Below, in pieces: positions 11,399-21,164 of a DNA stretch of 64,000 nt (positions are counted from its first letter, which is position 1; each line of letters begins with the position of its first letter). The stretch is taken from positions 1 through 64,000 of the forward strand of contig NZ_RAQK01000001.1 of the NCBI RefSeq assembly GCF_003610455.1, written 5' to 3'. Under the pieces are notes generated by a model that saw only the letters and a program-made list of their open reading frames with translations, was not told where the DNA came from and did no database searches. The position numbers and the translations under genes are program-made. The DNA is from Sulfitobacter guttiformis (lineage in GTDB: Bacteria > Pseudomonadota > Alphaproteobacteria > Rhodobacterales > Rhodobacteraceae).

Positions 11399-11472
11399 GC
11401 GGGTATGGTGAAAAGGTATCACGGCAGCTTCCCAAGCTTTAGTTACGAGTTCGATTCTCGTTACCCGCTCCA
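11399..11472 (+). tRNA. tRNA-Gly (anticodon CCC)
   Basis: 74 bases fold as a standard cloverleaf. The acceptor stem GCGGGTA pairs with TACCCGC; the D-arm is GTGAAAAGGTATCAC; the anticodon loop TTCCCAA gives CCC; the T-arm is ACGAG-TTCGATT-CTCGT; the CCA is encoded. The anticodon stem has one mismatch as I fold it. The 3' end is the left attachment site of the satellite element that follows, and the tRNA sequence is kept intact. Confidence 0.93.
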
Positions 11473-11474
11473 AA
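11459..11474 (+). repeat. attL core (tRNA-Gly 3' end)
   Basis: CGTTACCCGCTCCAAA, spanning the T-stem end, acceptor 3' strand and CCA of tRNA-Gly. An identical copy lies at 20786-20801. Confidence 0.85.
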
Positions 11475-11527
11475 ACTCCTGTTAAGTGATTGTTTTTAAG
11501 TAATAATGTCATAACATAGGATGCAAG

Positions 11528-11550
11528 ACCGCCCTTCAATCCGCCCTTAA
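11528..11550 (+). repeat. 23-bp two-half-site repeat, copy 1 (left end of satellite)
   Basis: Begins ACCGCCCTT and ends GCCCTTAA with a short spacer, so it is a tandem of two GCCCTT half-sites. It matches copy 3 (20647-20669) at 20 of 23 positions. It lies 53 bp inside attL. Candidate integrase arm site or AlpA-type binding site. Confidence 0.65.
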
Positions 11551-11717
11551 AAAATGCAACCTTGTGCCAATAAAAAGGCCGGGAAGCATCGCCCCCCGGC
11601 CCCTGTTTGCACCGCGTCCACTCACACAAGAAATAGACCGCGCCTTGTCGGGGTTTACCCACTACCCGACTAACGGGGTTGCTTTGCGGCTCTCTCTAAC
11701 CGCAAGGCGCAACCTGC

Positions 11718-12704
11718 CTATAGCTTGTGCTTTAGGAACGCCAACGGCACCGCCCGGCGTTCGACAACGCGGTTCCAGTTGGTCGCCTCGCCAAGTTCGG
11801 CAATCGTCGCGCTGTCGCCAACAACACTGGATTCCTGCCAAGCAAAGCCCGCCGGGTGCATCGCCAAGTTCACGCGACTGTGCAGAACCTGTTGCCCGCC
11901 GCCGTTGCCTGCGCTCGGTTTGCTCTCGATCTCGGTTCCTTCGGCAATGCGCGGCGCTGTCATGCCCCAGCCCACGGCACCAGCCCCGAACAAAACCGAC
12001 GTATAATCGCCCGTTAGCACCGGCAACAGATCATCCACGATCAAAGCCATGCCGCGATAGGTGGCAATCATGCCGCCTTGGCTGTCTGGCACATACTCAA
12101 TCGCATCAGATTTCAGGATCACTTTGTAGGTATCGGAGTGAACCCCCATTGCGGATAGCCCGCCCATCTGGTCGCCAAGTGTACCCGCCGCGTCGATCAC
12201 AGCCGCGACGCTAAACTTGTTAGCTGCGCCCGTCTCGGCAGTGATATCTTGCAGCATGTCCCCGCTGTCGTTCGCCACGTTGTCGCCAAGGATGCCGTTC
12301 AAACTACCAATCAAGCGTCGCTGCGCCTGTCGCGTCCAATAGGCGGTTGTGCGGTTCTGGATACGCGTCAACGCATCATCGCCCGAAAGTTCGCTGGCAA
12401 GATTCATGGCGGACCATGATTTGTGCAGAAACGATTTGCGCACGATTTGCTTTCCGCTCCCCAGCTTGGCCGGTGTGCTGGACGTGTCAGGATCATCTGA
12501 AACGATATCGGCCTCATCGTCGGACAGGTCGTTCCAAAACGGAACGCTAAACGATTCTGCCCCCGCGCGTAGCTGCGCCTCGATTTCGCCATTGCGCGCG
12601 GCAACGCCGCTTTGGACAAGCGCGCTGTTCTCCATTGAATTTTGAACGGTGTAGGTGGTGAATTCTTCAGGAATTACCACGTCGGATAGTCGTGTTACGG
12701 CCAT
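11718..12704 (-). CDS. Probable major capsid protein of the satellite
   Basis: A 328-residue protein resembling phage coat proteins. It has an N-terminal extended segment (VIPEEFTTYTVQNSMENSALVQSG), an acidic middle, a long mixed alpha/beta domain with a helix TAYWTRQAQRRLIGSLNGILG, and a C-terminal part ending NWNRVVERRAVPLAFLKHKL. A closing basic, hydrophobic tail of this kind is common in coat proteins that maintain shell contacts. The placement directly after a scaffold-like gene and the terminases supports this call, though the exact capsid family is not certain. The ATG at 12704 has GAGGTG seven bases upstream; a GTG at 12713 would add three residues. It is the last gene before attL. 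Confidence 0.7.
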   Translation of the reverse strand: MAVTRLSDVVIPEEFTTYTVQNSMENSALVQSGVAARNGEIEAQLRAGAESFSVPFWNDLSDDEADIVSDDPDTSSTPAKLGSGKQIVRKSFLHKSWSAMNLASELSGDDALTRIQNRTTAYWTRQAQRRLIGSLNGILGDNVANDSGDMLQDITAETGAANKFSVAAVIDAAGTLGDQMGGLSAMGVHSDTYKVILKSDAIEYVPDSQGGMIATYRGMALIVDDLLPVLTGDYTSVLFGAGAVGWGMTAPRIAEGTEIESKPSAGNGGGQQVLHSRVNLAMHPAGFAWQESSVVGDSATIAELGEATNWNRVVERRAVPLAFLKHKL

Positions 12705-12833
12705 AGCTGGCACCTCATATTCTGAAATTTAGGGATATGACGGTGCAGCCCACAAGGCCGCGTCCGGTGCCGCATGGCGGCGATTACATCGCGCGGACAA
12801 GCCACAAGCCAAGCCGCGCAATGTGGTATTATA

Positions 12834-13334
12834 TTACCGCAAACCTAAACGCGGCGCAACCTTTTCAGCCTTTTGGGGCGGCGTCGCTGTCGCGCTCGCG
12901 CCATTGCTGCCCGGCGCACCTCCACCGCTTGGCGGTCTCATCGTCGCGGCAAGATCGGGAACGGCCATCATTGCTTGGCGCAAGTCATCTGGCGTAAAGT
13001 TTGCCGGGCGGTCGCCTAGCGATACTGGGTTGCCGTCAACATCGGACAACATCGGCTTGCCGCTTTCGTCCAGACTCAACTTGAAATGCTCCTCCACAAC
13101 CGAACGCATCACGCGCCAAGGAACCGAAAACATGCTGGCAACCGTGTTTTCTAGCGGCTCATCCAGCATGACGCGCTGCACATTTGCGGTCGCATCGTCG
13201 CGCGCAGTGTTTGCAGCGTCCCGTTCGCCTTCCAAAGTCGCAATGCGGCCCTTCAGCGTCTTGATATCGGCCAGCAACTCCGCGTTTTTCCGTAGCAGCC
13301 CTTCGATATTGTGTTCTGTGTTCTGGTCGCTCAT
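12834..13334 (-). CDS. Scaffold-like capsid assembly protein
   Basis: 166 residues. The N-terminal third is a predicted coiled coil with a heptad pattern (LLRKNAELLADIKTLKGRIATLEGERDAA). A middle domain (about 60-125) has alternating helices, and a Gly/Ala/Pro/Thr-rich tail ends in a basic stretch (KAEKVAPRLGLR). This layout, size and position between large terminase and coat protein fit phage scaffolding proteins, which nucleate the shell and then leave. The start ATG overlaps the terL stop by one base (TGATG). No protease gene is present to digest it, so if it is a scaffold it would have to exit intact. Homology to a named family was not recognised. Confidence 0.55.
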   Translation of the reverse strand: MSDQNTEHNIEGLLRKNAELLADIKTLKGRIATLEGERDAANTARDDATANVQRVMLDEPLENTVASMFSVPWRVMRSVVEEHFKLSLDESGKPMLSDVDGNPVSLGDRPANFTPDDLRQAMMAVPDLAATMRPPSGGGAPGSNGASATATPPQKAEKVAPRLGLR

Positions 13335-14743
13335 CAGTATAAACCTTTCACGGTTGAAGTTCGGCTTGTGATATCTTTGCGCTTGTCGCTTCCCAGCAGC
13401 GCCACAAGGCCCGCCGCCGCGTTCGCGCGGTCGTCGTGTCCGCCGGGTGGGTGGTCGATCAGATCACGGCCCCCGCGCGAAGTGCGGCGCTCCAACGCGC
13501 AAAGCTGGCGTTCAATCATCGGGCATGGTGGCAATTCAACGCGCGCGGCGTTCAATGCTTGGCCCATGCTTAAATAGAGTTCGGAACGGGTGCCGGGCGA
13601 ATCCAGATAAGCGACGGTGTGACGCCTGAATTCAGTGCGGACCCATTCCGCGCCGTAGCGGTCGCCATAAACCTTCGTGATACCGTAGGTTTTCAACAGC
13701 GCGCAATAATCTGCCGTGATCGCCGCCGGGTTGCCTTTGCGCCCCCGCACCGCATCAAGAATGATCGCCTCGCCTTTTTCGCGGTGTCCTATGGCAATCG
13801 TGAATTCATCGGCCCCGCCGCCGCTTGGATCCACAAAGGCCCAATACTTCACGCCACGCTGTCGCGGGATCTCCATAGGTTCTTGTCGCTGCGCCATCGC
13901 CACAAGCTCAAGCGAAAGGAAGGTTTCAATATCGCTGCGAAACTGCGCCAGATATTCAGCAGATGCCCGCGCCGCGTCGTCTTTCATCGCGTCATCAACT
14001 ACCCGTTGCGGCAACAGCGGGTTCATTGTGCGGCTCGGTGCCTGCGCGACCAATACGCGGTCGCTGTCTTGCCCATAGTGCCGCCTGTAGGTGTCCCACA
14101 AGACGCCCCGCCGCGCATAGGGTGATGAGATACCAATCAACCGGCCACCAAGCGTTGCCAGCGCCGGACGTAGCGCCGCGATGATCTCTACATCAGGGTT
14201 CGCGCCTTCACTGTGCCAAAAGGCGATTTCATCCGCGATGACTGCGGCCAGCGTGTATCCGCGCACTGATCGGTGCGATGCCGTGGTGATCTCGATCACG
14301 GTGCGGTTGTTCAACTCGATCTGTTCGGAATTTTCGCGCAAGATCATGCGCCGCAACATCGGGTTGGAATTCATCAGACCGGACGTGTAGCGCATCACGG
14401 CCCGCGCCTGCTTTCGATCAGCGGCAATGACCATCACGGTAGCAATCTCGCCCGGTGCAAGGCTGTCGCGGTAGTCATGGAACGCGGCAAGGAACACCGC
14501 CAGAAAGCCCGCTGCATAGCTTTTGCCGCCACGCCTGCCAACTGCCAGCCATAACTCATCATGCGGCCCCTGTGGCGCTGTCTGGCGTCCTGTGAGCGTC
14601 TTGAACATGTCCAGTTCGGTGGCGTCCAGTTCCAGACCGTAGAAGCCGGATAGAAGGGCGCGCCATGCGGTGAAACTGTCGCCGCCGAATGTGTCACCGA
14701 ACAAAGCCGGATCGGTCATGGCGGTGCGGATATCGACTGCCAT
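13334..14743 (-). CDS. terL: Large terminase subunit (DNA packaging motor)
   Basis: A 469-residue terminase with both enzymatic halves. The ATPase domain has Walker A GRRGGKS (about residue 70) and Walker B AAVIADE (about 167). The RNase H-like nuclease domain has acidic residues in FVDPSGG (about 290), GDRYGAEWV (about 365) and HPPGGHDDRANA (about 440). This enzyme pumps DNA into a preformed shell through the portal and cuts it. Full length, no frameshift. It starts one base inside the terS stop (TGATG). A satellite with its own TerL directs packaging itself rather than diverting the helper motor. Gene transfer agent terminase was considered, but the GTA gene neighbours are absent. Confidence 0.92.
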   Translation of the reverse strand: MAVDIRTAMTDPALFGDTFGGDSFTAWRALLSGFYGLELDATELDMFKTLTGRQTAPQGPHDELWLAVGRRGGKSYAAGFLAVFLAAFHDYRDSLAPGEIATVMVIAADRKQARAVMRYTSGLMNSNPMLRRMILRENSEQIELNNRTVIEITTASHRSVRGYTLAAVIADEIAFWHSEGANPDVEIIAALRPALATLGGRLIGISSPYARRGVLWDTYRRHYGQDSDRVLVAQAPSRTMNPLLPQRVVDDAMKDDAARASAEYLAQFRSDIETFLSLELVAMAQRQEPMEIPRQRGVKYWAFVDPSGGGADEFTIAIGHREKGEAIILDAVRGRKGNPAAITADYCALLKTYGITKVYGDRYGAEWVRTEFRRHTVAYLDSPGTRSELYLSMGQALNAARVELPPCPMIERQLCALERRTSRGGRDLIDHPPGGHDDRANAAAGLVALLGSDKRKDITSRTSTVKGLY

Positions 14744-15108
14744 CAGCCTGCGCGTCCTGCGATGTAGTCGGACAGGCTTGGCGTTACATCACGCGCGCGG
14801 CGTTCAAGCCCCAGATCGGCCAGCAGGCGGCGCATAGCGTTGCTTATGGTGGCATATTGCACCGCGTCGAATTCCTGCCCATTGGCAAGTTCCGTTTCCC
14901 GTGCCTCGGACCAGACGGCCAGCGTCGCGGCCCGTGCCAGCAGGTGCTTTTGTGCCTCGGTCAGATCGTCGCCAAGGTCGCGTTCAATGCCGGTGACGAT
15001 CTCGCGGAACCTGCGCGCCATCATCGAACGGCCATCAACGCCAGCCAATGCAACCGCACCAGTTCCCCGGCGGGTGCTAAATTCGGGCGGTGGTGGTGCT
15101 TTCGCCAT
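14743..15108 (-). CDS. terS: Probable small terminase subunit
   Basis: About 121 residues, largely helical (ALAGVDGRSMMARRFREIVTGIERDLGDDLTEAQKHLLARAATLAVWSEARE), directly upstream of and overlapping terL. Small terminases recognise the packaging site and recruit TerL. The family is too divergent to prove by eye, so the call relies on size, fold pattern and position. The ATG at 15108 (MAKAPPPP) has AAAGG upstream; an earlier ATG at 15144 would lie on the 23-bp repeat and has no ribosome site. It heads the packaging/capsid operon. Confidence 0.65.
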   Translation of the reverse strand: MAKAPPPPEFSTRRGTGAVALAGVDGRSMMARRFREIVTGIERDLGDDLTEAQKHLLARAATLAVWSEARETELANGQEFDAVQYATISNAMRRLLADLGLERRARDVTPSLSDYIAGRAG

Positions 15109-15143
15109 GCTAAGTGTAGCCTTTCTTTGTCGATCTGGCGTCA

Positions 15144-15166
15144 TTAAGGGCAGAATTGAGGGCAGT
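15144..15166 (-). repeat. 23-bp two-half-site repeat, copy 2 (ahead of terminase operon)
   Basis: On the minus strand it begins ACTGCCCTC and ends GCCCTTAA, and it matches copies 1 and 3 in both half-sites. It lies 36 bp upstream of the preferred terS start, in the promoter position for the packaging operon. Confidence 0.65.
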
Positions 15167-15480
15167 TTAAAAACGTGTACCAGATTAACGCACTGTAATC
15201 TTTATTTCATTCTGTTAATTCGGTTTCCATATTGGGAACCGAACCGCCTGACTATCGGTCAGCGCAGAAAAAAGATGCGGAAAGATCGGTTTTGCGAACC
15301 GTTCGCAACTGCTATTCACGCCCATCAAGCGATGGGGAATCCGGCCACCGTGTGACAGGTGTGACGCATGTGACGCGTTTTCTTACTGTTACCGGGTACG
15401 GAAAAAACAATGTTCTGTAGAAACATTAAATTTCCCCATGATTAGTACAGTTAGATAATGCGTCACATCCGTCACATCCG
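15145..15480. other. Noncoding control and replication segment of the satellite
   Basis: 336 bases without a gene. From left: the 23-bp repeat (15144-15166); an AT-rich stretch; a 10-bp inverted repeat with one mismatch TTCGGTTTCC-atatt-GGGAACCGAA (15219-15243); a perfect palindrome TTGCGAA-ccg-TTCGCAA (15292-15308); a perfect hairpin CCCATC-aagc-GATGGG (15321-15336); then the iteron region. The palindromes look like operator sites for dimeric regulators or structure-specific initiators. Confidence 0.6.
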
Positions 15481-15485
15481 TCACG
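15351..15485. other. Putative replication origin: two opposed iteron arrays around an AT-rich core
   Basis: Array A (15351-15377) has three abutting 9-mers on the plus strand: TGTGACAGG, TGTGACGCA, TGTGACGCG. Array B (15459-15485) has three on the minus strand: TGTGACGCA, TGTGACGGA, CGTGACGGA, and overlaps the 3' end of the primase gene. The 81 bp between is AT-rich. P4-type primase-helicases bind iterons to start replication, so this is a natural origin candidate. It lies directly downstream of the primase gene. Confidence 0.65.
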
Positions 15486-18123
15486 CCCCCCAAGCGATGG
15501 TCGTCACCTTAAGGCCCGTAACATAGCGGGTGGTTCGATCTCGATCTGCCCCAAAGCCAAGCCGCGTGAGGCGATCTCGCAAACCCTTTTGGCTCATTGT
15601 CTTGGCGATGCCGTTATCTTGCGCCCATGTCTGGTAGGCTCGGAACACGTCGCCAACCGGCGTTCGCGCACCTTCAGAACGCTGGCAGTTATCATCAACG
15701 AATTGCGCCACCTGATCGGCCTCCAGCCGCCATTCCTTCTTTGCGGCTTCGGACGATTGCGGCTGCGTAAAGCCATCGGCCAAGGCGTTGGCGTACGCGT
15801 CCAGCGTCATATTGAGGATGCCGGGGAGTTCGGTCAGCAGTTTTTCCTTCAACAGCGGATCTTGCTCGTGCGTCGCAAAGGTCCGGTTGAATTGTAGAAT
15901 CGTGGCCCGCCTGAATAGCGCCTCCGAGAAGTCGCGCGTGTGCGGCATGTGGTTCGTCCCAAACCAGCAGGTTGCGAACGGGCGCATCACAAAGGGGTTC
16001 TGGAATTTATGTTCCACCGTTGCCGGTTCCCCCGACGTGATTGCCTTCAATTCCGCATCTGCAATGACCTCACCTTGCTTCAATTCGGTGACGATATTGG
16101 CAAGCTTTTGGTGCAGGTGCGCGCGCTGGAACCTGTTTTCAAAGTTGGACGGCTGGACGCCTGCCACGTTCGTATGTCCTAGCAGCCCCTCCAGCACGGC
16201 CAACAGAACCGATTTGCCGTTCGCTCCCGGCCCTATGAGCATCACAAAGCGTTCGTGGCGCGCATGGCTCATCAGCGTATAGCCCATCAGTTCCAGCGTC
16301 GATTTGATCTTGTCGGCCTTGTCAGGGTCATCTTGAAACACTTGATCCAGAAACGCCCGGAACAGCGGCGCATCCGCGCTACGGTCATAGGCAACCGGGA
16401 TCTGCGTTGTTCTGTAGTGTTCTCGGCAATGTGGCTCAAGATGCCATCCAACAACGTCGTCCAACTCAATTTCACCATTCAGGCAATTTACCGCTTCGGG
16501 GTTGCCCCGGTTGAATTCGTGCCCCGGCTTGAAAATCTCTGATTTCAAAACGTCTGTGACGCCATTTACAAGGCTGGCGGTCACGTCAACGCCCTCGGTA
16601 TCAATCACGTTCTGCGTCGCTTGCTTTATTGCGCGGTCATCTTGTTGCGCCCACACGCCCGCATCCGACCACTGCCATATGAATGCATCCGCGCAGATTA
16701 TGTTCTCGCGCCCGATGCCGCTTAACGTGACGCGGGCAAGATCGAGATGATCCGGGTCGTCGGTTTCGCTGCCGTAGGATGATTGATCGCGCAACGTGCC
16801 AAGCGGAACCTTGGTCGCATCTTTGATCGCACGAAAGATCGCGTCCTGCCGCATGGGGTTTAGTCCGGCGGCTTCGATCACGATTGCCTCCATGTCGTCG
16901 ATCTGGCCCGGCTCTAACGCCTGCGCGGCCTCCATGAGTTCATCATAGCTGCGCGGCGCGACCCCATCGGCGCGGTTGCGGTCGCGTTCAGCTTGCATCT
17001 TTTCGGCCTCTGATCTGTTTGTTTCGGTTTCAATTGAGTAAAGGCCAAACCGCGCAAGATGCCCGGCTCTGAGGCGTCTTATCGTGTTGTGCGCGCGTTT
17101 GCGCAGTGCCGTCTGCCCGCTCGGTGCAGTCCATCGGTCATCGCCTACTGTCTCTTGGCAAAAACGTGGAAACGCCGCGTCGAAGATTTCGCCGCCAGTC
17201 GGGTCCGCGCCGTGCGCACGCTGATACTTGGCGAGTTCGGCCATCACGATATGCCGCCAAAACGCTTCGCGGCCATCGGTGACAAGGCCATCGGCGTTGC
17301 GGCTGATTTCGCCCGGCCCGCCATTGCCGCCGGTGCTGCCCTTTCCGGTCTTTGGCTGCCAGCCCGGCATAGGGGGAAGCAAAACAAGGCGACCAAGGTC
17401 TGCCTTTGGCGTTTCTTCGACTATGACCATGGTCAATTCGTCAACATAGCCTTTCGCCCGCTTTGCGGGGTCACTGATCCAGTTGACGGTGCCGCCCAGT
17501 CGTAGAATCCGCGCACTATCTCTCACTTTGTGATCGGCCCCTACATGCGCGACCAGCGCGCCAAGTGCTGCGGTGTATTCGTCGGGATCATCACAAAGTT
17601 CGCGCAGCGGTAGCCAATGGTGAACGCGTAGTTCGGGCTTGCTGCCGGTCTTGACGCGAATTGCGCCCTTGAAGTCTGCCCCCTTTATCCGTTCCGCTAC
17701 GGCTTCAGCCGCTTCATCAGCTTCACACGCTGCAAAGGCTGCGGCGTAGAAGTCCAGTGTAGAGCCGCGCTTATAACGGTTCGCGTCTGGTGTGCGCATC
17801 GCTGCGCCGATGTAGAGGTTCGCGCCCTTACCATTCTGTTCTGCGGCAAAAGAGGCTGCGGCGTCGAGTTCATCCAAACCGAACAGCCGCGCGCGGTCCG
17901 GTGCCGGGCTGCCGGGTGCAGTATAGGCGATCTCGCAAAGCCCATCCTCGAATTCTGATTGCGAAAAAGGTGCAGCCCAAGCGTCAAGATGCTGTCGGAT
18001 CGCGGTCAAGTCAGGCTTCATCAGGAAGCCCCCCAGATCATCGCTGCCAACAAATTGGCCTGCGCTTCGGTCAGCCCATGGGCGCGCATCAGTAGTTTGA
18101 TTTGCAGAATTCTCATTGCTCAT
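15481..18123 (-). CDS. P4/D5-type primase-helicase replication protein
   Basis: 880 residues. The N-terminal third looks like an archaeo-eukaryotic-type primase (RepB/PrimPol-like; GSTLDFYAAAF and RVHHWLPLRELCDDPDEYTAA). A linker follows, then a D5_N region and a superfamily 3 helicase domain with Walker A GPGANGKS (about residue 640) and the SF3 motif FGTNHMPH (about 720). The C-terminal winged-helix segment (QKGLRDRLTRLGFGADRDRTTRYV) is typical of DUF5906/P4-alpha proteins. Such proteins bind origin iterons, unwind and prime, giving autonomous replication. The ATG at 18123 has GAGGT before it; an upstream in-frame start at 18147 has none. Full length and uninterrupted. Confidence 0.88.
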   Translation of the reverse strand: MSNENSANQTTDARPWADRSAGQFVGSDDLGGFLMKPDLTAIRQHLDAWAAPFSQSEFEDGLCEIAYTAPGSPAPDRARLFGLDELDAAASFAAEQNGKGANLYIGAAMRTPDANRYKRGSTLDFYAAAFAACEADEAAEAVAERIKGADFKGAIRVKTGSKPELRVHHWLPLRELCDDPDEYTAALGALVAHVGADHKVRDSARILRLGGTVNWISDPAKRAKGYVDELTMVIVEETPKADLGRLVLLPPMPGWQPKTGKGSTGGNGGPGEISRNADGLVTDGREAFWRHIVMAELAKYQRAHGADPTGGEIFDAAFPRFCQETVGDDRWTAPSGQTALRKRAHNTIRRLRAGHLARFGLYSIETETNRSEAEKMQAERDRNRADGVAPRSYDELMEAAQALEPGQIDDMEAIVIEAAGLNPMRQDAIFRAIKDATKVPLGTLRDQSSYGSETDDPDHLDLARVTLSGIGRENIICADAFIWQWSDAGVWAQQDDRAIKQATQNVIDTEGVDVTASLVNGVTDVLKSEIFKPGHEFNRGNPEAVNCLNGEIELDDVVGWHLEPHCREHYRTTQIPVAYDRSADAPLFRAFLDQVFQDDPDKADKIKSTLELMGYTLMSHARHERFVMLIGPGANGKSVLLAVLEGLLGHTNVAGVQPSNFENRFQRAHLHQKLANIVTELKQGEVIADAELKAITSGEPATVEHKFQNPFVMRPFATCWFGTNHMPHTRDFSEALFRRATILQFNRTFATHEQDPLLKEKLLTELPGILNMTLDAYANALADGFTQPQSSEAAKKEWRLEADQVAQFVDDNCQRSEGARTPVGDVFRAYQTWAQDNGIAKTMSQKGLRDRLTRLGFGADRDRTTRYVTGLKVTTIAWGA

Positions 18124-18224
18124 TACCTCGGTGATTGCCGAAAGCAACGGGCGGTGCTATATTCAGATTGAAGCCGTCCAAGCCTCGATTATCGTATTGC
18201 CCCGCCGTTGCCTTCGGTGGGGTT

Positions 18225-18470
18225 TTACTTTTTCGGATTACTCACGATTGCGCGCAGCTTGGCTTGTGCGTCACGACGTGCGCCTTCAGCGCGCAGTGCT
18301 TCGGCCTGTTGTTGACACCACGCGCCCATATCCTCGGCGGCTTCGGCAATGGCGGGCAGTGCGTCCGGGTATTGCTCAAGGCGCATCAGCAAGAATTGAA
18401 GCTGAACGCCGGGGTTCTCCCCGGCTCTTTCCATGGTGGCGCGCACGATCTGTTTATCCCAATCAAACAT
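18225..18470 (-). CDS. Small satellite protein of unknown function (81 aa)
   Basis: MFDWDKQIVRATMERAGENP, then a helical, acidic stretch with QLQFLLMRLEQYPDALPAIAEAAEDM and a basic end. No family recognised. Its ATG overlaps the alpA stop by one base (TGATG), so it is translated with the regulator. Its position between regulator and replication protein is where satellites often carry small interference or replication-control genes; that is inference only. Confidence 0.6.
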   Translation of the reverse strand: MFDWDKQIVRATMERAGENPGVQLQFLLMRLEQYPDALPAIAEAAEDMGAWCQQQAEALRAEGARRDAQAKLRAIVSNPKK

Positions 18471-18670
18471 CACGCTGCCCCCCGCTGATCGGCTTCCCAC
18501 GCATCAAGATCTGCCAAGCGCCAATAATTCAGGCGGTTAATCTGGATCGGTTGCGGGAAGCCCAAGGCCGGGTCGCGGACCCAACGCCAGATTGTAACGT
18601 GTGATTTCTGGTAACGGGCTTGGACTTGTGGGCCAGTTAGGAATGTTTGTTGTGTTGTCGGGATCTGCAT
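18470..18670 (-). CDS. AlpA-family helix-turn-helix regulator
   Basis: 66 residues. The winged helix-turn-helix is typical of AlpA/excisionase-like proteins: LTGPQVQARYQKSHVTIWRWVRDPALGFPQPIQINRLNYWRLADLDAWEADQ. In P4 and in PICIs such proteins switch on excision and replication genes. The ATG at 18670 is preceded by AAAAGGATG. An inverted repeat lies just upstream (18672-18742). Confidence 0.85.
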   Translation of the reverse strand: MQIPTTQQTFLTGPQVQARYQKSHVTIWRWVRDPALGFPQPIQINRLNYWRLADLDAWEADQRGAA

Positions 18671-18671
18671 G

Positions 18672-18742
18672 GTGCATCCTTTTCGGATTTGCCAACCGTT
18701 GAAGCGATATGTGAGCCACTTCGGTAGGCGTTTCGGATGCAC
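18672..18742. promoter_or_regulatory. Operator-like repeats upstream of the AlpA gene
   Basis: GTGCATCC (18672-18679) is repeated inverted as GGATGCAC (18735-18742), and TTTCGGAT occurs twice in the same direction (18681-18688 and 18731-18738). The pair brackets the region where the alpA promoter must lie. Confidence 0.4.
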
Positions 18743-18797
18743 AATAAATTTCACGAAACAGCACGCAGGCTGCGACAACAACTGAAAACAGTTTCTG

Positions 18798-19289
18798 TCA
18801 GTCGTAACCCGGTTCCTGTTCGTCTCGTTTGATCCGCGCCAGTTCGACCTTTAGGGCTGCGCGGCATTCCTTGGCGCGAGACGGCGCAATCTCAGACAGA
18901 TCGCTTGCAGCCCAACGGATCAGGCTTTGATGAAAATAAAACCACCAGAATTCTATGCTGCCGTGCAAAACAGAACCTTTTTTTATGTCTCTCTCCACCG
19001 TCTTGGTTTTATCTGTTCCTTGTGCATCGCCATCACCGCGCAAAAGAACAATTTCATCAGCAGTCAACTTCCCATGTTCCGAAAGCACAAATGCGTCTGC
19101 AAACCGCTGAAAATCTCTGACTGGTTTTCGACCGTCTTTTTTTTGCCAAGGCTTTCCGCCCCGCTGGAATTCACGCGCACCATCGGCCATGAATCTTAAT
19201 AGCCATTCGGGCGGCGTCTTGCCTTCCTCTACATGCAGAATGAATAGGCGCAGTTTATCGTCGATTCGTGGGAAGTGATTTTCGTTCAT
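18798..19289 (-). CDS. Satellite protein of unknown function (163 aa)
   Basis: About 163 residues, following the integrase with a TGATG one-base overlap. No family recognised. Basic and acidic stretches alternate. A tryptophan-rich core (GSIEFWWFYFHQSLIRWAASDLSEI) suggests a buried helix, and the C-terminus is charged. The stretch at about 18900-19130 is more AT-rich than its neighbours. Position between integrase and AlpA is often used for excision or helper-response functions, but nothing in the sequence proves one. A GTG start one codon earlier (19292) is possible. Confidence 0.65.
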   Translation of the reverse strand: MNENHFPRIDDKLRLFILHVEEGKTPPEWLLRFMADGAREFQRGGKPWQKKDGRKPVRDFQRFADAFVLSEHGKLTADEIVLLRGDGDAQGTDKTKTVERDIKKGSVLHGSIEFWWFYFHQSLIRWAASDLSEIAPSRAKECRAALKVELARIKRDEQEPGYD

Positions 19290-20641
19290 CACCGCGCGCC
19301 CATCTGCACAACCTTTTCAGGCTCTTTCCCCTGCACAAAGCCGCCCCAAGCGTCCATCATGTGACGCCGCTTCTCCACCTGTTCGGCGCGATTATATGCC
19401 TGCGCAACTTTGTTTCCTACCTTGTGGAATAGCGCGACCTCGGCCAAGTCACCATCAAAGGCGGTGCGCTCCGCTACCCATGTGCGGAACGCGCTGCGCA
19501 TCCCATGTGGCACGGCTTGTTCGCCTGTCTTGGCGTCCACATAGCCCTTACCGCCTGCCCTAAGGTCAGCGTCGTGTATTGTCCGCATAGTCTTACCCAT
19601 TGCAGCATCAGACAATGCCCCGCCACGCGGCGACCAAAACACGAGGTTTGATCCGGCCAGCCTTGGCAGGCTTTCCAGCAGCGCCAACATGCTATCTGTC
19701 AGCGGAATACGCTTGGCGGTGTCGCTGGCCGGTATTTTGGACGATTGCCTCCCCGGCTGGATCGTCCAAAGGCGGTTTTGAAGGTCGATTTCATCCCATG
19801 TGGCAAAGCGTATCGCGCCGGATCGCGTCGCGGTCATAGCTTGGAAGGCCAGCGCCTTGGCCCCCATGCCTTCGCGGCCTTGTAGCGCCTGCCACCAGCG
19901 CGCCACGTCATCAAGCTGCACTGCGGGGTAGTTCTCAGCACCCGATACCTTACCGGGCGCGGCCAATACCATGTCCAGATTCCCCTTCCATCGCGCGGGA
20001 TTGTCGCCAGTGCGGTAGCCCTGCACTGTGGCGTAGGCCAGCACCTTTTCGAGCCGTTCACGCACCTTTACCGCTGTCACCGTCTTGTCGTCCCAAAGCG
20101 GGGTCAGAACGCGCAGAATGTCTTGCAAGCCTATGTCCTGCACCGCCATCTTGCCTATATCCGGCAATGCGTAAATTTCAACCGTGCGCTGCCATTGCTT
20201 CCGGTAACGATCCGTCGAGAATTCTTTGATCTTTTCGGCGGCGAATTTTTCCCATGCCTCGGCAAAGGTCATGCCCCTGCGCGCAGACGCTATAAGCGCA
20301 GCCTGTGTGGCCTTCTTCTCTGCTATGGGATCGATTCCCGCCTCAAGCTTGGCCTTGGCCTCTCTGGCCTTGTCACGTGCTGCGCCGGGCAACACATCAG
20401 GATAAGCCCCAAGGCCAAGTTCGCGCTTCTTGCGCCCCCGCTGGATCGTGCCATCTTTCAAGCGCGTCTCGGCCCATTCGCCGTATCGCGTCCGCAAGAC
20501 CCATGATTTGGCACCGCTTGGCCATATTTGGATATGAAGGCCAGAGACGCCACCGACGGCCACCCTGACGGGCTTTGTGCCGCCGGGATGCTTCAAGCCC
20601 TTGATCTGTGCCGGTGTCAATTCTTTTGCACGTGGTGGCAT
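19289..20641 (-). CDS. int: Tyrosine integrase, P4 type with DUF4102 arm-binding domain
   Basis: 450 residues. N-terminal DUF4102/Arm-type domain (SGLHIQIWPSGAKSWVLRTRYG and the LGAYPDVLPGAARDKAREAKAKLEAGIDP signature), a SAM-like core-binding domain (about 120-220), then the catalytic domain with Arg in TATRSGAIR, HGMRSAFRTW, and the nucleophile in VAQAYNR. Integrases of this group commonly use tRNA 3' ends, matching the tRNA-Gly att site found here. It catalyses integration and, with an excision factor, excision. The gene lies at the end distal to the tRNA, 145 bp from attR. Intact length; an active enzyme is plausible. Confidence 0.93.
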   Translation of the reverse strand: MPPRAKELTPAQIKGLKHPGGTKPVRVAVGGVSGLHIQIWPSGAKSWVLRTRYGEWAETRLKDGTIQRGRKKRELGLGAYPDVLPGAARDKAREAKAKLEAGIDPIAEKKATQAALIASARRGMTFAEAWEKFAAEKIKEFSTDRYRKQWQRTVEIYALPDIGKMAVQDIGLQDILRVLTPLWDDKTVTAVKVRERLEKVLAYATVQGYRTGDNPARWKGNLDMVLAAPGKVSGAENYPAVQLDDVARWWQALQGREGMGAKALAFQAMTATRSGAIRFATWDEIDLQNRLWTIQPGRQSSKIPASDTAKRIPLTDSMLALLESLPRLAGSNLVFWSPRGGALSDAAMGKTMRTIHDADLRAGGKGYVDAKTGEQAVPHGMRSAFRTWVAERTAFDGDLAEVALFHKVGNKVAQAYNRAEQVEKRRHMMDAWGGFVQGKEPEKVVQMGAR

Positions 20642-20646
20642 ATTAA

Positions 20647-20669
20647 ACCGCCCTTTATTCTGCCCTTAA
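20647..20669 (+). repeat. 23-bp two-half-site repeat, copy 3 (right end, upstream of integrase)
   Basis: Begins ACCGCCCTT, ends GCCCTTAA. It lies just upstream of the integrase start. Its second half-site TGCCCTTAA (20661-20669) is repeated inverted at 20684-20692 as TTAAGGGCA, so the site is part of a larger palindrome with a 14-base loop. Confidence 0.65.
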
Positions 20670-20785
20670 CTATGTTCTGCAACTTAAGGGCATGAAAGGC
20701 TATGAACAAGGGGGAAGCACATATACCCATGAAATAAATAGGTTTTGTGCAGATCAAAGCTTTCATGAAAGCCCATTTAGGCTCC

Positions 20786-20801
20786 CGTTACCCGCTCCAA
20801 A
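20786..20801 (+). repeat. attR core
   Basis: CGTTACCCGCTCCAAA, identical to the tRNA-Gly end at 11459-11474. The bases before it (GGCTCC) do not continue the tRNA, so only the terminal part of the tRNA is duplicated, as expected for integration into a tRNA 3' end. Confidence 0.85.
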
Positions 20802-20852
20802 TCCATCAACAAATCATCAATGAGATTTTAACCGACATTAATTAGCCCTGCA

Positions 20853-20876
20853 CAAAAAACCGCCGACCTTTCGGCG
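20853..20876 (-). terminator. Rho-independent terminator, minus strand
   Basis: On the minus strand CGCCGA-aagg-TCGGCG is followed by GTTTTTTG. It probably ends transcripts coming from the reductase side before they enter the satellite. Confidence 0.7.
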
Positions 20877-20939
20877 TGCACGCACAACCTGCTAAGGGCG
20901 TGGGACGCGTGATGTGCGCCACGGTATTTTCCCCTCATC

Positions 20940-21077
20940 CTACGCCTTGAACATCGCGTCAAATTTTCGCTCCCCTCCGCCTGCATCAAACGCTCGCAGC
21001 GGGCGCATAACGTCTTGTTTGACAGGCTGGCCCAGCTCCTCCAATATAATTTTAATGCGGATCGCGCCCCGGCCCAT
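20940..21077 (-). CDS. Possible small protein (45 aa)
   Basis: An ATG at 21077 opens a 45-residue frame (MGRGAIRIKIILEELGQPV, then an ending GGERKFDAMFKA). The composition is protein-like, and the only minus-strand terminator here lies 64 bp after it. It has no clear ribosome site and no family was recognised; it may be the relic of a larger gene. Confidence 0.3.
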   Translation of the reverse strand: MGRGAIRIKIILEELGQPVKQDVMRPLRAFDAGGGERKFDAMFKA

Positions 21078-21164
21078 GTCTCACGGGTGAAGGCTTGGGA
21101 CCGGTCAGGCGTCAAATCACCAGCTTTCCGGCCTTGTGCAAATGCTGGCCCGCATAACGCAAGC

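Follow-up and report, generated by a model that had tools for sequence, protein, structure and literature searches.

How might a small integrated element that encodes a capsid protein, a scaffolding protein and a packaging motor, but in which no portal gene is recognised, get its DNA into a particle? In tailed phages, scaffold, shell, portal and terminase are usually one matched set. The question is raised by positions 11459-20801 (9.3 kb) of a 64,000-nucleotide stretch of DNA from Sulfitobacter guttiformis (contig NZ_RAQK01000001.1, positions 1 to 64,000; hereafter the window), where every gene lies on the minus strand in an order running from integrase to coat. From the sequence, we think it probable that the element is an integrated satellite whose lineage supplies the capsid shell and packaging motor itself but makes no portal. 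As to how such a lineage would persist, we lean toward portal piracy: an ancient lineage, spanning at least two phyla, whose shell, scaffold and motor would be assembled on a portal stolen from an unrelated helper phage.

Head genes and the search for a portal

An earlier note on this DNA had described a capsid-encoding satellite without tail or lysis genes of its own, built from a single-direction set of integrase, AlpA-like regulator, primase-helicase, small and large terminase subunits (TerS and TerL), scaffold and coat genes. The set was borne out by matches to Pfam, PHROGs and solved structures, with TerS assigned by position only; the genes named were present, and two small ones (19292-18798 and 18470-18225) had been omitted. 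Pfam and PHROGs scans of the nine element proteins recognised no portal, minor head protein, protease, connector, HNH, tail or lysis gene, in agreement with the satellite description. A complete prophage was rejected, given that no portal, tail or lysis gene was recognised in 11459-20801.

Known portals are about 300 amino acids (aa) or more in length, and the six used here as queries span 373-544 aa. The unassigned coding-strand open reading frames (ORFs) of the element are 164 and 81 aa long and its largest antisense ORF is 216 aa, so a portal within the known size range would not fit among them. Because none was recognised and no unassigned ORF is large enough, portal and neck would have to come from elsewhere, which makes the earlier supposition that only tails and lysis are borrowed too narrow. 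The no-portal argument for the window element is one of size.

Related phages place a portal at the position in question. In 13 of them, hand-chosen from 723 matching phage records, a gene of portal size lies upstream of the pair of scaffold and major capsid protein (MCP) genes in every case (the scaffolds of several, annotated as hypothetical, were identified by position). This gene is annotated as a portal in nine phages and as "structural protein" in four, of which the one tested, that of ART, resembles the XAJ2 portal (6e-111). In 12 of the 13 phages the portal-sized gene comes after TerL, the TerL of Eta lying outside the stretch viewed. In the satellite loci described below, TerL abuts the scaffold where related phages place the portal: the gap between the two genes is -50 to +18 nt in all 14 loci with TerL upstream, and in the window they overlap by one base. 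The scaffold itself is short, with a median of 177.5 aa in the satellites (44 ORFs, some cut by contig ends, three longer than 250 aa) versus 227-292 aa in the 13 phages, and the satellite scaffold profile matches 9 of the 13 phage scaffolds. A shorter scaffold would fit a smaller shell, and the head may be small; by analogy with phage-inducible chromosomal minimalist islands (PMC10803314), packaging of concatemers in a larger head is also possible.

The portal search was extended to the lineage with 52 unassigned ORFs longer than 230 aa from 19 elements and four circular contigs. No portal-named family was found among the 25 commonest families per library for these ORFs, with 9 Pfam and 70 PHROG rarer families falling outside those; the commonest families comprised terminases, replication proteins, DNA-binding domains, unknowns and cargo, and 17 of the 52 ORFs were a second type of TerL. 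Re-scans of 12 of the 52 singly in Pfam and/or PHROGs, and further scans of four of the 52, gave no portal match. Searching all ORFs of the loci by phmmer with the six portals recovered the controls and no gene inside any element; the portal of a prophage (G086) in the host's family was also found. The portals of XAJ2, R9Y1 and ART find one another by this method.

Relatives of the element

Related loci came from a scan of genome contigs (36) and from IMG/VR (13), giving 50 with the window. Scanning IMG/VR with the window MCP alone produced no confirmed locus, and alignment A1 was used instead to obtain the 13. An MCP ORF of at least 880 nt is present in 41 of the 50 loci, and nine with no full MCP ORF (L034, L035, L038-L043 and L056) were excluded from MCP counts. 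A wide protein search returned 876 MCP relatives, 120 of them among the matches listed. TerL was recognised in 36 of the 41 loci: the window type upstream of the scaffold in 7, the second type upstream in 7, and the second type downstream of the MCP in 22. Since TerL type and position vary around the scaffold-MCP pair, TerS and TerL are taken to be swapped together as a cassette. L030 and L033, from Acidobacteriota, have the scaffold downstream of TerL. Four distant loci (40-42% identity) found by an IMG/VR scan with TerL were included in the TerL profile and kept outside the family counts.

Most of these loci have the architecture of discrete integrated elements. Direct repeats bracket 19 of the 21 loci in which both integrase and MCP were labelled, delimiting 9.3-11.4 kb, and 18 of the 19 lie at a tRNA gene, with eight kinds represented (Gly, Ser, Val, Leu, Cys, Thr, Arg and Glu); in the remaining one, L033, the repeat is at the contig end and no tRNA was found. 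Outside the bracketed set are L008, with a 15-bp repeat spanning 13.3 kb and another integrase, and L026, for which no repeat or tRNA was found. For L015 and L021 a shorter repeat inside the tRNA was used, the longest lying outside it, and for L016 and L031 the shorter of two tRNA-starting repeats was used, the longest giving 12.9 and 11.4 kb. Bracketed elements occur in Pseudomonadota and Acidobacteriota, and the relatives' hosts include Halomonas, Marinobacter, Pseudomonas, Lysobacter, Rhodoferax and Terriglobus; contrary to the earlier proposal, the lineage is not specifically alphaproteobacterial. The module is present on two circular IMG/VR contigs, L044 and L051, and the identical ends of L051, L055 and L056 and the near-end recurrence in L044 are as for circular molecules of 7.8-9.8 kb. 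L055 and L056 are circular contigs of 7.8-7.9 kb with scaffold and MCP in which no tyrosine integrase was recognised; L055 encodes a replication protein (Rep_1) and an ORF resembling a DNA invertase, and L056 a weakly TerS-like protein.

The 41 satellite MCPs formed a single clade (support 100/100, stem 0.63) apart from the MCPs of the 13 phages and the G086 prophage, which are 26-46% identical to that of the window. MCP matches were detected in 2 of 394 genomes of the host's family in all, the other being G086, with 46% MCP identity. There the order is a portal match, a gene the size of a minor head protein, a weak scaffold match (7e-4) and the MCP, with many further genes alongside. The earlier note had named as a refutation homologous loci that are larger complete prophages, with the element a deletion of them; this distant one aside, the relatives are not larger prophages. 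Between the window and its nearest relative, in Pelagivirga (L008), the ratio of nonsynonymous to synonymous substitution (dN/dS) was 0.098 for MCP, 0.161 for scaffold, 0.152 for TerL and 0.190 for TerS, values that are approximate because dS was 0.65-1.23. These ratios point to purifying selection on all four window genes, with the head genes intact.

Additional genes were seen in some relatives. In two Rhodobacteraceae loci, ORFs of 493 and 558 aa after the MCP (L011:11548-13029 and L022:11131-12807) match several tape-measure families in their C-terminal part and are possibly a satellite-encoded short tail-length ruler. The C-terminal part of a 268-aa ORF (L027:6004-6810) matches a tail assembly protein family (phrog_32, 1.1e-29); a homologue of tail assembly protein I is likewise present in satellite AH14b (PMC4936722). 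Cargo includes a MamI-type restriction endonuclease and an SRAP protein (L025:13160-14155; L015:12833-13735).

Readings of the missing portal

In the mechanism that we propose, infection by a helper or its induction would switch on AlpA, and the element would excise and replicate from the iterons adjoining its primase gene. MCP and shortened scaffold would then build a shell, probably a small one, on a portal ring of helper origin; the element's TerS and TerL would dock on that portal and package satellite DNA, and the neck, tail and lysis proteins of the helper would complete and release the particle. Taking the helper portal would guarantee fit to the helper's neck and tail, and it would withdraw portals from helper heads. 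An analogy is provided by SaPIbov5, where the MCP homologue Ccm sits in the pentamers of heads that the helper otherwise makes, and in whose procapsids the helper portal was found (PMC8569155); this precedent shows that a satellite capsid protein and a helper portal can be combined in one head. Head assembly is generally held to nucleate on the portal (PMC8569155), and a widespread lineage retaining shell, scaffold and motor, with no portal recognised, opens to direct test whether a foreign portal could start head assembly and take on a motor that is not its own. If portal piracy is real, shell and motor can be separated from the portal, the link between head and tail. The lineage would bear on how satellites fit the tails of different helpers, and searches requiring a portal or protease could overlook the group.

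Several observations weigh against portal piracy. Three of the six portal queries find only themselves among the controls, and the portal of another element of this host, at a tRNA-Met, scores 0.0018 in PHROGs; with portals this divergent, one elsewhere in the lineage could escape detection by sequence search alone. A 491-aa ORF of L056 was left without family assignment after scans. Just outside the right repeat, a 95-aa ORF (20828-21115) has a weak match (36 residues, 2.8e-4) to the portal of that same tRNA-Met element, a resemblance that could be fortuitous or the remains of an earlier element. Five MCP loci have no recognised TerL (L028, L036, L037, L048 and the circular L055, some on short contigs), and neither does the circular contig L056; L036 and L037 were retained although their MCP, in two pieces, suggests broken genes. 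The satellites were retrieved with patterns from their own clade, so that intermediate prophages could have been missed. Finally, the resident 44-kb prophage, a candidate helper that nothing links to the element, has another head family.

Among the alternatives, a Ccm-like redirection survives best, though we consider it unlikely. The MCP would co-assemble with the helper's capsid protein on the helper's portal and force small heads, which the satellite TerS and TerL would package. Precedents are SaPIbov5 Ccm (PMC8569155), PmCI172, which carries an MCP homologue (PMC6092414), and PISP (PMC13230959). However, the element brings a scaffold and a TerL of its own as well, its MCP clade lies apart from all 14 phage and prophage MCPs in the tree, and no phage record of the 723 reaches 60% identity to the window MCP (best full-length match, 42%). 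The clade also spans two phyla, whereas a co-assembling subunit would be expected to track the MCP of its helper.

That the portal is an unrecognised small protein of the element seems improbable. Both orf2 and orf4 lack an assigned function and portals can diverge strongly, but the two proteins are far from the lengths of the six reference portals given above. Moreover, most elements have a different gene at the orf2 position (among 12 sequences compared, 2 of 66 pairs were clearly related), whereas a portal should be conserved. We also strongly doubt that the head genes are kept for interference or some role other than transfer, whether as shells soaking up helper portals in defence or as empty containers. 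Portal depletion would indeed harm a helper; against this use, 36 of 41 loci retain TerL beside the head genes, the one pair compared (window versus L008) shows constraint on TerL and TerS, and IMG/VR includes circular forms. An ordinary prophage reduced by deletion, to which the phage order TerS-TerL-(portal)-scaffold-MCP with the portal gone and the one related complete prophage in the family (G086) would lend themselves, is scarcely credible and was rejected, because the same core gene set recurs in the 19 bracketed elements at eight kinds of tRNA gene, with a single MCP clade, intact motifs and purifying selection.

The element was also compared with known systems. The earlier note had taken it for a smaller form of the capsid-forming phage-inducible chromosomal islands (cf-PICIs). 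Their definition includes a portal, head protease, connectors and HNH (PMC10690885); none of these was recognised, and the element is therefore not a cf-PICI. Islands of that family make small capsids that accept helper tails. It shares with cf-PICIs the status of a satellite with its own MCP and TerS/TerL (TerS here by position) and no tail genes, and their average of 14 kb places them in a similar size class (PMC10803314). Unlike them, it has a Gp13-like MCP and a separate scaffold; the capsids treed for cf-PICI and cf-PISP belong to PF05065 (PMC13230959). With PICIs in general it shares an integrase with a specific attachment (att) site and its own replication gene, directly 3' of which these islands have their origin (PMC6092414); the origin-like array of the element may be a counterpart. 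Induction by phage, interference and packaging into phage-like particles are further PICI features (PMC6092414). SaPIbov5 Ccm and PmCI172 have in common with it an MCP homologue in a satellite, but Ccm acts inside helper-made heads, whereas the element adds its own scaffold and TerL, and its MCP belongs to a deep separate clade. The PISP plasmid satellite TG93 has capsid E, a protease and TerS, with no portal or TerL mentioned (PMC13230959). Capsid protein, TerS and the unmentioned portal are shared with the element, and capsid E with a protease, plasmid location and restriction to Vibrio are not. The MulchRoom and MiniFlayer satellites also encode scaffold, MCP, TerS and TerL; unlike the element, they encode a portal and head-tail adapter and no obvious replicase (PMC10690885).

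The nearest satellites that we met with a capsid but no portal are PISP and the Ccm-type PICIs. P4 relies on the capsid protein and terminase of its helper, and its origin carries iterons; the element, in contrast, brings its own MCP and TerL. P4-type satellites share with the element an integrase, AlpA/Vis-type regulator and primase-helicase (PMC6092414). The literature searched contained no portal-less satellite with MCP, scaffold and TerL, although a mention in the founding cf-PICI, SatelliteFinder and VEIME papers is possible; the element belongs to a lineage not turned up in that literature.

Features of the element and other capsid elements of the host

The exact 16-bp repeats claimed by the earlier note, one in a tRNA 3' end, were confirmed (Table 1) and exceed chance. 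The left copy overlaps the 3' end of tRNA-Gly(ccc), and an 18-mer containing the repeat has two sites in the 64 kb at up to 3 mismatches (0 and 1 mismatch), versus 0.03 expected and two sites in 0 of 100 shuffles. The genes had been called all overlapping, which holds for int/orf2, alpA/orf4, terS/terL and terL/scaffold; gaps of ~336 nt and ~120 nt separate primase from terS and scaffold from MCP. In 19 other same-genus loci at this tRNA-Gly, a methyltransferase gene adjoins the tRNA in 13 and the MCP is absent from all, the window MCP falling within the equivalent flank length. In this comparison the integrase position is beyond the fetched flanks, the downstream sequence is variable, and no base-exact empty site was established.

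Table 1. Features of the element and its integration site in the window
Feature	Position	Strand	Basis or remark
tRNA-Gly (ccc), integration site	11399..11472	+	ARAGORN
att repeat, left	11459..11474		CGTTACCCGCTCCAAA, exact 16 bp, at tRNA 3' end
Major capsid protein (MCP), Gp13-like, 331 aa	11718..12713	-	phrog_247 3.3e-95; Pfam Gp13-like 1.8e-6
Short head scaffolding protein, 166 aa	12834..13334	-	phrog_206 2.9e-11
Terminase large subunit TerL, 469 aa	13334..14743	-	phrog_2 1.4e-24
Terminase small subunit TerS, 133 aa	14743..15144	-	Position and homologues in same place
Origin-like inverted array of GTGACG iterons	15351..15484		Directly 3' of primase gene
P4/D5-type primase-helicase, 881 aa	15481..18126	-	Pfam DUF5906, D5_N, Pox_D5; phrog_864 3.7e-76
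orf4, 81 aa, no assigned function	18225..18470	-	Pfam/PHROGs scans
AlpA/excisionase-like regulator, 66 aa	18470..18670	-	phrog_4745 5.4e-8, phrog_66 3.9e-6
orf2, 164 aa, no assigned function	18798..19292	-	Variable gene adjoining integrase
Tyrosine integrase, 450 aa	19289..20641	-	phrog_1 4.6e-38; Pfam; HGMR and C-terminal Tyr
att repeat, right	20786..20801		CGTTACCCGCTCCAAA, exact 16-bp copy

Catalytic motifs are kept in the integrase, the primase (Walker A, GPGANGKS) and TerL (Walker A GRRGGKS, Walker B AVIADE and acidic motifs). By profile, the MCP matches the solved coat proteins 4an5/6r3a (5.6e-65), which we take to be SPP1 gp13. The Pfam match of the regulator is weak (HTH_17, 0.0025, short of the family cut-off). 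TerS matched nothing in any library scanned and has four homologues at the equivalent place (37-83% identity). The predicted folds of TerS (pLDDT 66, low confidence) and orf2 had no match at E<=0.001 in the viral structure library. The origin-like array has arms of 38 nt that are 84% complementary, and the commonest 6-mer of the region occurs five times, above all 200 shuffles. Of seven relatives read at the equivalent stretch, L053, L032 and L017 carry iterons of other sequence above all shuffles, L008 and L020 carry similar arrays within the shuffle range, and L012 and L022 (the L022 stretch chosen approximately) have no array.

Neither TerL nor MCP of the window has a second match elsewhere in the host genome, and a search of that genome for a G086-type portal was empty, which, with no positive control, is uninformative alone. 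Portal families PF04860, PF05133 and PF05136 were sought (T7, P22, Mu and DUF1073 types were left out) and matched in four places: a gene transfer agent (GTA)-like cluster, the tRNA-Met element, a tRNA-Cys element and the 44-kb prophage. The earlier note had named as a refutation portal, connector and tail genes lying elsewhere as part of the same prophage; instead, these portals sit in separate elements with other MCP families.

A gene transfer agent is a head-tail cluster without integrase or att site. The host's cluster (L063; C2 ~630-644 kb), presumably GTA-like from its gene order, lies elsewhere, and the element, with att and integrase, was rejected as such an agent. The tRNA-Met element (L065; C2:178202-189203, 21-bp repeats) is cf-PICI-like, with TerL, HNH, MCP, protease, integrase and its own divergent portal (weak match). 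The lambda-type element at tRNA-Cys (L066; C1:502191-513109, 10.9 kb, 47-bp repeats) has integrase, decoration, MCP-protease, portal, TerL and TerS genes, with no tail gene among seven ORFs scanned. Together with the window element, L065 and L066 make three small capsid-encoding elements in one genome. The 44-kb prophage lies between two tRNA-Asn genes with an 80-bp repeat; five of its ten scanned proteins matched nothing, and it encodes a portal, an MCP-protease, an integrase and proteins matching a major tail family (weakly, 2e-4) and a tail-lysozyme/endolysin. Each of the three mobile portal-bearing elements of the genome has its own tRNA sites.

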